Positions 3,077 through 36,274 of a stretch of 36,290 nucleotides of DNA are shown one piece after another. Made by a program: the position numbers and the translations under genes. The stretch is taken from the NCBI RefSeq assembly GCF_014202415.1, contig NZ_JACHGR010000012.1:1-36290 (forward strand). The letters are read 5' to 3'. The DNA is from Tolumonas osonensis. GTDB taxonomy: Bacteria; Pseudomonadota; Gammaproteobacteria; Enterobacterales; Aeromonadaceae. Below the pieces are notes generated by a model. It worked only from the letters and a program-made list of their open reading frames with translations, ran no database searches and was not told the origin of the DNA. Position 1 is the first letter of the stretch. Every line of letters begins with the position of its first letter.

Positions 3077-3937
3077 TTATTCCACGTTTTGGATCTGTTC
3101 GCGCATCTGCTCAATCAACACTTTCAGCTCAACCGCTGCCTGGGTCACTTCTGCATTGATGGATTTAGAAGCCAGAGTATTCGATTCGCGGTTGAATTCC
3201 TGCATCATGAAATCCAGACGACGACCACATGCGCCACCTTTACTGATGATTTTACGGGTCTCAGTGACATGCATATCCAAGCGATCCAATTCTTCTGCCA
3301 CATCAATTTTTTGTGCCAGCAGAACAATTTCCTGTTCTATACGGGTAGGTTCCAGTTCGACTTTGGCTTCTGCCAAGCGATCCAGCAAGCGCTGACGCTG
3401 CCAGTTGAGAATAGCGGGCATGTGTTCCCGTACTTTTGTTGCTTCAACCGCAACACCTTCCAGCCGCTGCTCAAGCAGGGATTTCAATTTGTCACCTTCG
3501 GAACGGCGTGCCGCGATAAACTCTTTGAATACTTCATCAAATGCCGCCAACAAGGTGACATTCAGCGCATCCATATCCTGTTCTTCACCTTCCATCACGC
3601 CGGGCCAGCGCAGGATGTCCACCGGATTAAGCTGTCCTTGTCCGGCACGATCAATCACCCATAACGCATTATCAATCAGCTGTTCTGCCAGCACTTCATT
3701 TATCTGCAATTGCCCCTGGCTGACCTGACTTTCAAAACGCAGGTTGCATTCAATTTTGCCGCGCTCTAAACCCTGACGGAAACGCTCACGCAATACCGCT
3801 TCCAGATTGCGGAAGGACTCGGGTAAACGGAAATAGGTTTCCAGATAGCGCTGGTTTACGGAGCGGATTTCCCAGACTGCCGTTCCCCAGTCCCCTTTGA
3901 ATTCTTTACGGGCGTAACCGGTCATACTATGGATCAT
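3077..3937 (-). CDS. yicC: YicC family endoribonuclease
   Basis: A 286-residue protein, matching E. coli YicC (about 287). The N-terminus MIHSMTGYARKE and the C-terminal DUF1732 region, with EQEIVLLAQKIDVAEELDRLD, KGGACGRRLDFMMQEFNRESNTL and SINAEVTQAAVELK, are diagnostic. Family members are reported to be endoribonucleases acting on RNA, including small RNAs, in the cytoplasm. The reading frame extends 23 codons further upstream, but MIHSMTGYARKE is the conserved family start and has AAAGAG upstream. It is divergent from rph, the same arrangement as in E. coli. Confidence 0.93.
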   Translation of the reverse strand: MIHSMTGYARKEFKGDWGTAVWEIRSVNQRYLETYFRLPESFRNLEAVLRERFRQGLERGKIECNLRFESQVSQGQLQINEVLAEQLIDNALWVIDRAGQGQLNPVDILRWPGVMEGEEQDMDALNVTLLAAFDEVFKEFIAARRSEGDKLKSLLEQRLEGVAVEATKVREHMPAILNWQRQRLLDRLAEAKVELEPTRIEQEIVLLAQKIDVAEELDRLDMHVTETRKIISKGGACGRRLDFMMQEFNRESNTLASKSINAEVTQAAVELKVLIEQMREQIQNVE

Positions 3938-4004
3938 GGCGTGCTCTTTAAGTAGCGAGGAATTGTTCCGATTATACCCAACCCACCCCCTAACGTCAGT
4001 AGCC

Positions 4005-4033
4005 ATGCAATACAGGCATAGATCACGTATAAT
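4005..4033 (+). promoter_or_regulatory. Candidate promoter of rph-pyrE
   Basis: A perfect -10 TATAAT at 4028-4033 lies 30 bases before the rph ATG. At 17-base spacing the -35 would be ATGCAA (4005-4010), a poor match, so an activator or other upstream contact may help. Confidence 0.45.
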
Positions 4034-4063
4034 TCGCGCAATTCAATACTGTCAGGAATCATC

Positions 4064-4777
4064 ATGCGTCCAAGCGGAAGAACGCCGGAACAACTGCGTC
4101 CCATCACTATTACCCGTCAATATACCTGCCATGCTGAAGGCTCGGTACTGGTTGAATTTGGCCGGACTAAAGTACTGTGTACGGCTACAGTCACCGAAGG
4201 TGTCCCTCGTTTTCTGAAAGGAAAAGGTCAGGGTTGGGTTACCGCAGAATACGGTATGCTGCCACGCTCCACCCATTCACGTATGCACCGTGAAGCCGCA
4301 TCAGGCAAACAGGGTGGCAGGACGTTAGAAATTCAGCGCCTGATTGCACGCTCGCTGCGCGCAGCCGTCGATCTGACCAAACTGGGTGAAAATACCATTA
4401 CTGTTGACTGTGATGTGCTGCAGGCTGATGGTGGTACTCGTACCGCATCCATCACCGGAGCTTGTGTTGCACTGGCTGATGCATTGAACTGGATGCAGGA
4501 AAAAGGCACTCTGAAAACCAACCCGATGAATTTCATGGTAGCCGCGGTGTCTGTCGGTATCTATGAAGGTATTCCGGTATGTGACCTGGATTATGATGAA
4601 GACTCCAGCGCCGAAACCGATATGAATCTGGTGATGACCGAAACTGGCAAAATGATTGAAATCCAGGGAACCGCAGAAGGCGAACCATTCTCTCAGGAAG
4701 AACTCATGCAGTTGCTGGAACTGGGCAAGCAGGGTATTCAGCAAATCATTCAGCATCAGCGTCAGGCACTGGTCTGA
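4064..4777 (+). CDS. rph: Ribonuclease PH
   Basis: A 237-residue phosphorolytic 3'-5' exoribonuclease that trims tRNA 3' ends using inorganic phosphate. It works as a hexamer in the cytoplasm. The start [14 protein letters not shown], the segments [19 protein letters not shown] and [21 protein letters not shown], and the Asp-rich [17 protein letters not shown] are typical of the family. The C-terminus is full length, unlike the frameshifted rph of E. coli K-12. pyrE follows after 26 bases, so the two are almost certainly one operon. The spacer has no hairpin and T-run, so the UTP-sensing attenuator known between these genes in E. coli is not seen. Confidence 0.97.
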
Positions 4778-33240: not shown

Positions 33241-33275
33241 AACACGCCAGCTTGTTGATAACCGGCTGGCGTGTT
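33241..33275 (+). other. Stem-loop after treC
   Basis: Perfect 11-base-pair stem AACACGCCAGC with GCTGGCGTGTT and a 13-base loop. It is followed by A residues, not T, so it is not a standard intrinsic terminator for treC. Confidence 0.5.
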
Positions 33276-33311
33276 AAAAAATTCCGCATACTCTCCGTAT
33301 GAGGACTTATT

Positions 33312-33719
33312 ATGTCGCAGATCGATGACCACCTGCTGACTCAACTGATGGATGCCGCCAAAGCCAGCATCCGTCATGCCTATATGCCCTACTCAAACTA
33401 TCCGGTCGGCGCCGCAGTATTAGCAATGGATGACCAGATCATTGCCGGGGTGAATATTGAAAATGCCGCCTATCCTGCCGGCACCTGCGCAGAACGGGTT
33501 GCCCTAGGTAACGCCATCAGCCAGGGACACCGTGAATTCAAGGCTATCGCCGTGTTTTCACCAAAGGGCGAAATCAGCCCGTGCGGCGTCTGTCGTCAGT
33601 TCATCTCCGAGTTCGGACCAGACATCCAGATCCTGTTCCACTGGCAAGGCCAGTTGCAGCAAATGCCAATCAAAGACTTGCTGCCATTTTCTTTCAGCCA
33701 GACTCAGTTAAACGCTTAA
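33312..33719 (+). CDS. cdd: Cytidine deaminase, short homotetrameric type
   Basis: A 135-residue zinc enzyme that deaminates cytidine and deoxycytidine to uridine forms for pyrimidine salvage. Zinc ligands are C59 in the CAE motif (catalytic E61) and C91 and C94 in PCGVC. The substrate loop GVNIENAAYPAG is intact. This is the short, tetrameric form known from Bacillus, not the 294-residue dimeric form of E. coli. The ATG follows GAGGA at good spacing, and a small hairpin (CATAC/GTATG, 33287-33301) abuts the ribosome site. ovoA begins 83 bases after its stop. Confidence 0.95.
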   Translation: MSQIDDHLLTQLMDAAKASIRHAYMPYSNYPVGAAVLAMDDQIIAGVNIENAAYPAGTCAERVALGNAISQGHREFKAIAVFSPKGEISPCGVCRQFISEFGPDIQILFHWQGQLQQMPIKDLLPFSFSQTQLNA

Positions 33720-33727
33720 GTATGCTG

Positions 33728-33795
33728 ATCTGAAACTGATCTCTCCCGTACTGTATTTGACCAGCTATAGTTTCAGATAAAATAGTAACGGGAGA
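33728..33795 (+). promoter_or_regulatory. Candidate pseudoknot leader of ovoA covering its ribosome site
   Basis: Stem 1: ATCTGAAACT (33728-33737) pairs perfectly with AGTTTCAGAT (33769-33778). Stem 2: TCTCCCGT (33742-33749), inside the loop of stem 1, pairs perfectly with ACGGGAGA (33788-33795), which contains the ovoA GGGAG ribosome site. The linkers are 4, 19 and 9 bases, and the last is A-rich (AAAATAGTA). This is an H-type pseudoknot topology. A competing promoter reading also exists: TTGACC (33757-33762), a 15-base spacer and TAAAAT (33778-33783). Confidence 0.5.
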
Positions 33796-33802
33796 ACAAC
33801 CT

Positions 33803-35977
33803 GTGCATACGTCAGATCAGCCTTCACTCCGAGATACCCAAATAGCCCCGGTCAGTTTATTACCCGCGCCAACCCATACCCTCAGGTTGCAAGGCACGGA
33901 TGTCGCTGCCAAACGACAGGAACTGCTGGATTATTTTATTCAGACCTACGATCTCTACGATTCGCTGTTTGATTGTCTGGCCTGTGACGATGCCTGGTAC
34001 AAGAAATCCATTCCGCTCCGTCATCCGCTCATTTTCTATTACGGCCATACGGCGGCATTCTTCATCAATAAACTATTGGCTGGACAGTTCATCCCGCACC
34101 GTATTGATGCAGATATCGAAGCGACGGTTGCGATCGGTGTTGATGAAATGAGTTGGGATGATCTGGATGAGAAACACTACCGCTGGCCAACAATTTCTCG
34201 GCTACGGGAATACCGCCAACAGGTCAGATCCTGCGTCATTCAATTCATTCGGGATATGCCACTAGAATTACCTATCACATGGGAAAGCCCTGCTTGGGCA
34301 ATCCTGATGGGCATAGAACATGAACGAATCCACCTGGAAACTTCATCGGTTCTAATCCGCCAGTTACCGCCGGAAAGAGTACAGCCGCAGACTCGCTGGC
34401 AGTATTGTCCGTTACAGCGGAATAACATTGCCGATGTCCCGCAAAACGAACTAATCACAGTAGCCGGAACAACCATCCAGCTGGGTAAACCAGAGACCGA
34501 TGCCACCTATGGCTGGGATAATGAATATGGCCATCGCGATATCCAGCTGGAATCGTTTCAGGCCAGCAAATATCTGGTCAGCAATGCCGAATATCTGGCG
34601 TTTGTTCAAGACGGCGGCTATCAGCAACCGCAGTGGTGGACTGAGGAAGGTCAGGGCTGGCTAAATTTCACCAAAGCGGATAAACCGACATTCTGGCAAG
34701 GAGATGCAGCGCAACCACAGTCATTACAACTCCGGCTTATGTGTAAGGAAATTCCCATGCCATGGGACTGGCCAGTCGAAACCAACCAGCTAGAAGCCGC
34801 TGCGTACTGCCGCTGGAAAGCCGCCAGAACCGGCTTACCGATTCAGCTACCCAGTGAAGCTGAATGGATGGTATTACGTAATACGATTGATGTTGATAAG
34901 CCTGATTGGAACAAGGCACCGGGTAACATCAATCTGGAATACTGGTCATCCTCCTGTCCGATCGACCAATTTCGACAGGGACAGTTTTATGATGTAATTG
35001 GTAATGTCTGGCAATGGACCAGTACAGCCATTGATGGTTTCGAAGGATTCAGGGTTCATCCGCTATACGACGATTTTTCGACTCCAACATTTGATGGAAA
35101 ACATAGTCTGATCAAGGGGGGGTCCTGGATCTCGACCGGTAACCTGGCGATCAAGAATTCACGCTATGCCTTCCGCCGGCATTTTTTCCAACATGCGGGC
35201 TTCCGTTATGTCGTTTCCCGTTATCAGGAACCCACTCTGGTTAATCCATACGAGACCGATCCACTGGTTGCACAATATCTTGATTCACATTATGGTCCTG
35301 AACGTTTCGGTGTTTCCAATCATTGCAAAATACTGGCCGAAATAGCGAATCAGATCTGTTCGCATAAAACCAGAGCATTAGATATCGGTTGTTCCGTCGG
35401 TCGTGCCAGCTTCGAGCTGGCAAAATATTTCCGGCATGTAGATGCCGTGGATTACTCAGCCCGGTTTATCGATATCGCACAGATCCTGGCGCAACAAAAC
35501 AGTTTCCGCTATGCCATGACCAGTGAAGGTGATTTAGTTGATTATCGCGAAGCAAAATTAACTGATTGTCTGTTATCCCCTGATTTGGCGAATCACATTC
35601 ACTTTACCCAGGGCGATGCCTGCAACCTGAAAAACAAATATCAGCATTATGATCTGATTCTTGCCGCTAATATGCTGGATCGTTTACGCGAACCGGCTCG
35701 TTTTCTTAAGGATTTAGCTCACCGGTTACGGGATGATGGTATTTTAATGATCTGCTCGCCCCATACCTGGCAGGAGGACTCTACAGCTAAGTCTAATTGG
35801 TTGGGAGGCATTCGGGAGAATGGTGAAGCGCTAACAACGTATCAGGCTCTGCAGCGTATCCTGAGCCAAGAGTTTGAGGAAATAGCGAAGCCGCAGGATA
35901 TTCCATTTGTGCTGCAAGAAACAGCCCGCAAATATCAGTATTTATTGTCTCAGCTAACCATCTGGCGCAAAAAATAG
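33803..35977 (+). CDS. ovoA: 5-histidylcysteine sulfoxide synthase / methyltransferase OvoA
   Basis: A 724-residue non-haem iron enzyme that couples cysteine and histidine oxidatively, the committing step of ovothiol A synthesis. The N-terminal DinB-like domain has the iron ligands H82 (YYGHTAAFF) and H173/H177 in the HERIHLE motif. The middle FGE-sulfatase domain has GNVWQWTSTAIDGFEGFRVHPLYDDF (about 400-425), with Y422 probably the active-site Tyr, and KGGSW. The C-terminal SAM methyltransferase domain (about 490-724) has motif I LDIGCSVGRASFE, so the later N-methylation is fused in. The start is GTG, 8 bases after GGGAG. The lyase OvoB is not recognised in this window. Confidence 0.95.
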   Translation: MHTSDQPSLRDTQIAPVSLLPAPTHTLRLQGTDVAAKRQELLDYFIQTYDLYDSLFDCLACDDAWYKKSIPLRHPLIFYYGHTAAFFINKLLAGQFIPHRIDADIEATVAIGVDEMSWDDLDEKHYRWPTISRLREYRQQVRSCVIQFIRDMPLELPITWESPAWAILMGIEHERIHLETSSVLIRQLPPERVQPQTRWQYCPLQRNNIADVPQNELITVAGTTIQLGKPETDATYGWDNEYGHRDIQLESFQASKYLVSNAEYLAFVQDGGYQQPQWWTEEGQGWLNFTKADKPTFWQGDAAQPQSLQLRLMCKEIPMPWDWPVETNQLEAAAYCRWKAARTGLPIQLPSEAEWMVLRNTIDVDKPDWNKAPGNINLEYWSSSCPIDQFRQGQFYDVIGNVWQWTSTAIDGFEGFRVHPLYDDFSTPTFDGKHSLIKGGSWISTGNLAIKNSRYAFRRHFFQHAGFRYVVSRYQEPTLVNPYETDPLVAQYLDSHYGPERFGVSNHCKILAEIANQICSHKTRALDIGCSVGRASFELAKYFRHVDAVDYSARFIDIAQILAQQNSFRYAMTSEGDLVDYREAKLTDCLLSPDLANHIHFTQGDACNLKNKYQHYDLILAANMLDRLREPARFLKDLAHRLRDDGILMICSPHTWQEDSTAKSNWLGGIRENGEALTTYQALQRILSQEFEEIAKPQDIPFVLQETARKYQYLLSQLTIWRKK

Positions 35978-36025: not shown

Positions 36026-36143
36026 AGCCTGGCAGTTTCCTACTCTCACATGACGAATGTCACACTACCATCGGCGTAACAGCATTTCACTTCTGTGTTC
36101 GGAATGGGAACAGGTGGTTCTACTGTGCTATGGCTACCAGGCA
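36026..36143 (-). rRNA. rrf: 5S ribosomal RNA
   Basis: About 118 bases on the minus strand. The 5' end TGCCTGGTAGCC pairs with the 3' end CTGCCAGGCT. Internal landmarks CCATTCCGAACACAGAAGTG and GCCGATGGTAGTGTG match bacterial 5S, as does GAGAGTAGGAAACTGCC. It stands downstream of tRNA-Asp and of an intrinsic terminator, so it is likely an extra, distal 5S copy. Exact ends may differ by a base or two. Confidence 0.95.
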
Positions 36144-36153
36144 AATCTGGTTT

Positions 36154-36186
36154 AATAAAAAAGCCTTAGCTGAAACTAAGGCTTTT
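36154..36186 (-). terminator. Intrinsic terminator between tRNA-Asp and 5S rRNA
   Basis: Perfect 11-base-pair stem AAAAGCCTTAG (36159-36169) with CTAAGGCTTTT (36176-36186) and a 6-base loop. On the minus strand it is followed by TTTTTTATTA. It lies upstream of the 5S gene in the direction of transcription. Confidence 0.8.
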
Positions 36187-36197
36187 CTTTAAATTAG

Positions 36198-36274
36198 TGG
36201 CGGAGTGGACGGGACTCGAACCCGCGACCCCCGGCGTGACAGGCCGGTATTCTAACCGACTGAACTACCACTCC
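36198..36274 (-). tRNA. tRNA-Asp (anticodon GTC)
   Basis: 77 bases including an encoded CCA (36200-36198). Acceptor arm GGAGTGG pairs with CCACTCC, the D arm holds AGTTCAGTCGGTTAGAA, anticodon GTC is at 36240-36238, and the T arm has GGTTCGAGTCC. It is very close to E. coli tRNA-Asp. tRNA-Asp commonly follows 5S at the end of rrn operons, so the main 16S-23S-5S genes probably lie beyond the right edge. Confidence 0.97.

Follow-up and report, generated by a model that had tools for sequence, protein, structure and literature searches.

Crossed helices in a leader RNA, one of them lying over the ribosome site, are characteristic of the preQ1-II and SAM-II riboswitches. The leader of ovoA in Tolumonas osonensis is reminiscent of this arrangement. 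In the stretch of DNA analyzed here, 36,290 nucleotides of contig NZ_JACHGR010000012.1 (the window), two crossed helices precede the gene, and one of them lies on its ribosome site. Unlike preQ1-II and SAM-II, the ovoA leader belongs to no RNA family to which it could be matched and displays no covariation, and crossed helices of at least 7 bp each are found in 6 of the 11 relatives compared.

A second point of comparison is provided by gene e of phage T4. According to one account, the longer early RNA of gene e forms an inhibitory structure, from which lysozyme synthesis is 100-fold below that of transcripts without the structure; soc, 49, and I-TevI are grouped with gene e as having inhibitory structures at the ribosome site (PMC3014915). 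In gene e, a helix covers the ribosome site of the long transcripts, and transcripts from a promoter immediately upstream of that site lack the 5′ part of the helix, both of which resemble what is proposed below for ovoA. The main differences between gene e and ovoA are that the −10-like hexamer lies in the 5′ strand at gene e and in the loop at ovoA, that ovoA resides on a bacterial chromosome with the element placed before a metabolic gene, and that the evidence for gene e is experimental, including mapped starts and an effect of 100-fold, whereas the behavior of ovoA is predicted. In the excerpts available from the literature on insertion sequences and on IsrK, no read-through case like that proposed for ovoA was found.

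The reading favored here, to which a probability of about 0.43 is assigned, is that ovoA has a promoter within a hairpin and that this hairpin silences messages reading through from cdd, the preceding gene. The cdd–ovoA gap would carry ovoA's own promoter, the −10 of which, TATAGT, would occupy the loop of a hairpin in the RNA. The 5′ arm of that hairpin (33741–33754) and the ovoA ribosome site are complementary. RNA begun in or before cdd would contain both arms, fold, and hide the site, resulting in poor translation of ovoA; RNA begun about 7 bases after TATAGT would be without the 5′ arm and would be translated. Helix 1 of the crossed pair would arise incidentally from two conserved blocks of DNA and would not be an RNA helix.

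Architecture of the cdd–ovoA Gap

The gene order is treC and cdd, followed by the gap (33720–33802, 83 bases) and ovoA (Table 1). The gene calls ovoA_Nterm, ovoA_Cterm, and cytidine deaminase all score above the NCBIfam cut-offs. Tolumonas belongs to the Aeromonadaceae. ovoA is present in 11 of the 11 Tolumonas genomes examined, and its leader was taken from each, window included. A consensus scan of the window found no intrinsic terminator between cdd and ovoA, and no terminator-like site was found in the region of L006 that was scanned (3600–4200).

Other repeats and genes are visible around the locus. Between treC and cdd, an inverted repeat, AACACGCCAGC / GCTGGCGTGTT, occupies 33241–33275 of the window and is followed by AAAAAATT; the consensus scan places a terminator-like site on the minus strand at this repeat (33266–33246). 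A 5S rRNA gene and a tRNA gene (36027–36274, minus strand) are convergent to the end of ovoA. The cdd–ovoA gap is longer in L006, L007, L008, and L032, with an extra inverted repeat, TTTGCACACTG ... CAGTGTGCAAA, upstream of the leader, and L009 has a shorter form of this repeat.

Table 1. Features of the cdd–ovoA region, in window coordinates
Feature	Position	Strand	Observation
cdd, cytidine deaminase	33312–33719	+	ORF; NCBIfam TIGR01354, 138.6 bits, above cut-off; next upstream gene, same strand as ovoA
Conserved block TGATCTGAA	33726–33734	+	Identical in 10/11 leaders, one change in G008; 9/9 bases in nine relatives
Helix 1, 5′ arm ATCTGAAACT	33728–33737	+	Exact reverse complement of 33769–33778
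Nested hairpin (predicted)	33740–33797	+	Would hide ribosome site if whole gap is transcribed; MFE fold, covariance model search
Conserved block, TTCTCYCGTACT in most relatives	33741–33752	+	9–11/12 identical to window
Helix 2, 5′ arm TCTCCCGT	33742–33749	+	Exact reverse complement of 33788–33795
Helix 2 extension	33750–33754	+	Pairs with 33782–33786 past one bulged A (MFE fold, pair table)
Conserved block TTGAC	33757–33761	+	5–6/6 identical over alignment columns 31–36 (33756–33761)
Conserved block GCTATAGTTTC	33764–33774	+	Apical part of nested hairpin; 9–11/11 identical
Putative −10 hexamer TATAGT	33766–33771	+	5/6 to TATAAT; 10/11 leaders, TTTAGT in G005
Helix 1, 3′ arm AGTTTCAGAT	33769–33778	+	Overlaps −10-like hexamer at 33769–33771
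Predicted transcription start	33777–33779	+	From usual −10-to-start distance off TATAGT
Helix 2, 3′ arm ACGGGAGA	33788–33795	+	Covers ovoA ribosome site
ovoA ribosome site GGGAG	33790–33794	+	GGGAGA in 10/11 leaders, CGGAGA in G005
ovoA, 5-histidylcysteine sulfoxide synthase with methyltransferase domain	33803–35977	+	GTG start; TIGR04344, 684.6 bits; TIGR04345, 321.2 bits

The two perfect helices in crossed order noted in a preliminary description of this DNA are confirmed: both are exact reverse complements, the 9-base linker is 33779–33787, and helix 2 would, as proposed there, mask the ovoA ribosome site, with its 3′ arm spanning GGGAG. Helices 1 and 2 are the sole perfect Watson–Crick helices of at least 6 bp in the gap. 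The accompanying argument that chance is an improbable source of these helices was evaluated with 4000 dinucleotide-preserving shuffles of the gap and stands for the crossed pair (10 + 8 or 8 + 8 bp), which appeared in 0 of 4000. It does not stand for helix 2 alone, since 54 of the 4000 shuffles had a helix of at least 8 bp whose 3′ arm ended within the last 18 bases; the crossed pair is therefore rare, and helix 2 by itself is not. Irrespective of position, helices of at least 8 bp were present in 111 shuffles and helices of at least 10 bp in five.

Helix 1 and the Crossed Form in Tolumonas

The preliminary description had interpreted the crossed helices as a pseudoknot riboswitch and had called for a covariation check. 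Among the 11 leaders, no compensatory pairs are seen in helix 1 or in the core of helix 2. For helix 1, two-sided changes are found in 0 of 10 pairs, a comparison of low power with 11 leaders; the 5′ arm is fixed in 10 of the 11 species, and changes in the 3′ arm are uncompensated. For helix 2, a two-sided change occurs in one cell alone, that of G005, a species without the helix. Three of the ten helix 1 pairs rest on the −10-like hexamer. The longest Watson–Crick version of helix 1 comprises 10 bp in the window and G007, 8 bp in G004, 7 bp in G009, G003, and G010, 6 bp in G006 and G005 (via the second repeat copy), 4 bp in G001, and 3 bp in G002 and G008. Pairing at the helix 1 columns is observed in 81.1% of cells compared with 17–50% when the columns are slid by 1–3, for a helix defined from one leader; shuffling the columns provided no statistical power (sd 0.0). 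A crossed pair of at least 7 bp each, counting G–U pairs, is present in 6 of 11 species; helix 1 of at least 8 bp occurs together with helix 2 in 3 of 11.

Pseudoknot-free folding programs cannot decide between the crossed and nested forms, and the crossed energy was computed as a rough stack sum plus a pseudoknot penalty that we assumed to be 7, 9.6, or 12 kcal/mol. On this rough scale, the crossed form is lower than the nested form in 5, 1, and 1 of the 11 species, respectively. The values for the window are −26.5, −23.9, and −21.5 kcal/mol at the three penalties versus −24.0 kcal/mol for the nested form. At the 9.6 kcal/mol penalty, the crossed form is lower in G004 (−24.6 versus −19.0), close to the nested form in G009, G003, and G010 (−13.0 versus −13.4 to −14.2), and higher in G007, G002, G008, G001, G006, and G005. 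By these estimates, the crossed form is energetically possible in about half of the species, without conservation across the genus. The riboswitch interpretation was set aside on comparative grounds, not on energy. No match to Rfam 15 was obtained in the gap at gathering level, and up to an E value of 10 just mir-1003 and Y_RNA were returned, both unrelated and far below their cut-offs. The best-matching 20 of 36 papers on ovoA or ovothiol never mention a riboswitch. As a caution, crossed helices that are perfect in a single genome can be produced by conserved DNA blocks.

Conserved Blocks and Putative Promoter Elements

Conservation among the leaders is greatest in a block whose fixed spacing is typical of promoters. 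Ten leaders share 53 ungapped columns; G008, which is excluded from this set, has an insertion before TTGAC. With the window as reference, the blocks TGATCTGAA, YTCTCYCGTACT, TTGAC, and GCTATAGTTTC are little altered in nine relatives, and the 6-base spacer 3′ of TGATCTGAA is identical to the window at 1–2 of 6 positions in seven of the nine. Identity to the window at fourfold-degenerate ovoA sites is 33–38% in seven of the eight relatives tested and 54% in G007. Fixed spacing combined with free spacer sequence is the typical look of promoters with protein sites. The TGATCTGAA block contains most of the helix 1 5′ arm and lies about 48 bases ahead of the predicted start, as a candidate site for protein binding. 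The block at 33741–33752 is the arm directed against the ribosome site, made up of the helix 2 5′ arm and its extension, and is also located at the −35 position for TATAGT.

The distance from TATAGT to the ribosome site varies among the leaders. In six relatives, an apparent 15-base tandem duplication after TATAG, recognized by eye, accounts for the longer leader; the repeat, TTTCAGATAAATCGT TGTCAGATAAATCGC, is found in L006 and L007 and in less perfect form in L032, L005, L009, and L008. In none of the 11 genomes is TTCTCYCGTACT, with at most one mismatch, as frequent as its reversed control, and it is thus not enriched. TTCTCYCGTACT and TTGACNNNCTATAGT were both considered as regulon motifs and rejected: the latter has 11 matches versus 31 for the control, 7 of the 11 at ovoA, and no regulon is seen.

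That a promoter might lie in the gap had been raised in the preliminary description, in the form TTGACC-15-TAAAAT. A promoter in the gap does fit best, with a different hexamer, TATAGT. The sequence TTGACC-15-TAAAAT is present and was rejected as the main promoter because TAAAAT occurs in the window alone (1 of 11 leaders) and its start would hit the ribosome site. Other −10 candidates are TACTAT and TATCTT, each in 6 of 11 leaders and neither in the window, and AATAGT in 3 of 11, where it is accompanied by TTGACA at a spacing of 17 in G001 and G006. No good −35 is found 17 bases upstream of TATAGT, the hexamers at this position being CTCCCG in the window and TCCCCG, TTCCCG, ATACAA, or CTCTCG among the other leaders. 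The consensus scan misses TATAGT and gives TTGACC-18-AATAGT at 33757–33786 instead. The promoter-like sites that it finds number 3 versus 1.3 ± 1.3 expected, near chance; one of them lies before cdd, at 33255–33282, and none was found in L006 (3600–4200), the sole relative scanned.

A Predicted Nested Hairpin over the Ribosome Site

The minimum free energy fold of 33720–33810 has a predicted energy of −28.7 kcal/mol (z −4.85), and 0 of 200 shuffles are equally stable. In the window, this hairpin is composed of helix 2, the extension past the bulged A, an inner stem, and a UAUA loop. The inner stem takes up the helix 1 3′ arm, the same bases as would be used by the pseudoknot, and shows no two-sided change in the Tolumonas leaders. 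In read-through RNA, the predicted cost of opening the ribosome site is 10.3–13.6 kcal/mol in the window, G007, G002, G004, G008, G001, and G006, and 8.4–14.5 kcal/mol in the same seven with 100–250 bases of context. The hairpin is absent in G009, G003, G010, and G005, for which the opening cost is 2.6–3.8 kcal/mol, or 2.9–4.6 kcal/mol with 100–250 bases of context, and the folding z is +0.2 to +1.3. The pairs that close the site shift between species and the predicted cost is still high, as in G008, with the 11 bp AGATTTCTCCC/GGGAGAAATCT, and in G002, with CCCGTACTGT/ACAGTACGGG. Exchange of 5′ and 3′ halves across species was uninformative, the native combination not being stronger than the mixed ones except in G008.

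To place these values, a sample of 102 genes, ovoA included, was drawn from this genome (the window plus eight stretches of 20 kb); each gene has 150 codons or more and a motif resembling a ribosome site. The ovoA site is the most hidden of the 102, at 12.3 kcal/mol versus 8.6 kcal/mol for the next, and ovoA alone has an 8 bp perfect helix on its ribosome site. Opening costs in this sample span 0.3–6.2 kcal/mol from the 5th to the 95th percentile, with 4.1, 5.7, and 8.6 kcal/mol at the 75th, 90th, and 99th percentiles. For RNA starting after TATAGT, the predicted cost falls within that 5–95% range in the 11 leaders, at 0.9–4.9 kcal/mol, and is 1.3–5.9 kcal/mol with longer downstream context; the short RNA of the window, at 4.8–5.9 kcal/mol, lies toward the top of what ordinary genes show. 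In the four hairpin-less species, the opening cost changes little between long and short RNA. Compared with the T4 pattern, the long RNA is thus predicted to hide the site in seven of the 11 species, that of the window among them, and not in the other four; RNA started inside the structure is predicted to leave it open in the 11 leaders. As the four hairpin-less species keep the 5′ arm, part of its conservation is not for pairing, and the arm has another role.

Distribution beyond Tolumonas

A covariance model, R1, was built from four leaders and run on 75 family genomes with stricter filters. R1 finds the ovoA place in 9 of the 11 Tolumonas genomes, the four training leaders strongly and five others weakly (E 0.001–0.1), and misses G008 and G005. 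Among the 64 other family genomes, only two weak places were found (E 0.07 and 0.15), in another genus. Ten Aeromonas ovoA leaders have no comparable hiding of the site (0.7–5.9 kcal/mol), and 20 pairings of Aeromonas and Tolumonas leaders gave no clear alignment; for the best of these, 2 of 300 shuffles (window with L015) and 11 of 300 (G007 with L015) scored as high, uncorrected for the number of pairings. Similar to Tolumonas, Aeromonas has a −10-like element, AATAGT, upstream of ovoA, as judged by eye. A −10 block shared by the two genera looked likely by eye and was left out as evidence because the alignments are unclear.

The Enterobacterales leaders L035, L036, and L039 also have, by eye, a −10-like element upstream of ovoA, TGCTACACTT. 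These three share TGCTACACTTTGCA, which we take to resemble a sigma-S extended −10, and ovoA may be under stationary-phase control in them. Some of the −10s may have a sigma-S look.

Alternative Explanations

The blocks could serve purely at the DNA level, as binding sites for a regulator and RNA polymerase, with a hairpin that plays no role and a complementarity to the ribosome site that is incidental or reflects a DNA inverted repeat. The fixed spacing with free spacer sequence is what such a promoter and operator would leave behind, and the lack of covariation in either helix, the retention of the 5′ arm in four species without a predicted hairpin, and the GTAC core in each arm of G007, G002, and G004 are in keeping with it. 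We regard this as rather unlikely nonetheless, given that occlusion amounts to 8.4–14.5 kcal/mol in seven of the 11 species and that the 99th percentile of the 102 genes, ovoA among them, is 8.6 kcal/mol. In addition, the 3′ arm has one-base bulges in the window, G007, and G004, which would suit RNA better than a protein–DNA site, and the arm is not enriched in Tolumonas genomes. The strong hairpin predicted to cover the ribosome site in seven of the 11 species could instead belong to a long leader, transcribed from cdd or from an upstream promoter, in which a protein, small RNA, temperature, or a metabolite opens it. This is less likely again: the conserved apical GCUAUAGU, the lack of a detected terminator after cdd, and the promoter-like site before cdd would fit, and they are set against the loss of the hairpin in 4 of 11 species, the lack of covariation, the missing promoter-like site in the scanned part of L006, and a start from TATAGT that would cut off the 5′ arm.

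An H-type pseudoknot riboswitch is very improbable. Its appeal lies in the perfect crossed helices unmatched in 4000 shuffles, the excess of helix 1 pairing over slid columns, a crossed pair that could form in 6 of 11 species, and a rough energy rivaling that of the nested fold in about half of the species. Against these stand 0 of 10 helix 1 pairs with a two-sided change, a helix 1 of just 3–6 bp in G002, G008, G001, G006, and G005, the lack of a gathering-level Rfam match, a restriction to Tolumonas apart from two weak places among 75 family genomes, and nothing that points to a ligand. A promoter placed inside the hairpin would account for both the DNA-like footprint and the hairpin. The basis for it, by sequence and calculation, consists of the conserved blocks, which keep their spacing in 10 of 11 leaders, a hairpin predicted for seven of them, and the cheaper opening of the site in the short RNA. 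The further steps, that TATAGT works as a −10, that transcription reads through from cdd, and that the difference in translation between long and short RNA matters, are inferences. The element itself is real and conserved, and the likeliest of the readings considered, at somewhat below even odds, is a promoter with a read-through-silencing hairpin.

Implications

More tentatively, only transcripts begun inside the hairpin might make OvoA, in which case ovothiol synthesis would be shielded from transcription of cdd. No publication treating both Tolumonas and ovoA was found in the literature searched, and on this proposal the gap would be a candidate control region for Tolumonas ovoA. The four Tolumonas species that lack the hairpin and have the promoter blocks provide a natural comparison. 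If the proposal is true, a control logic documented in phage T4 would extend to a gene of a bacterial chromosome, and a run of genes on the same strand could keep one of its members independent without a terminator.
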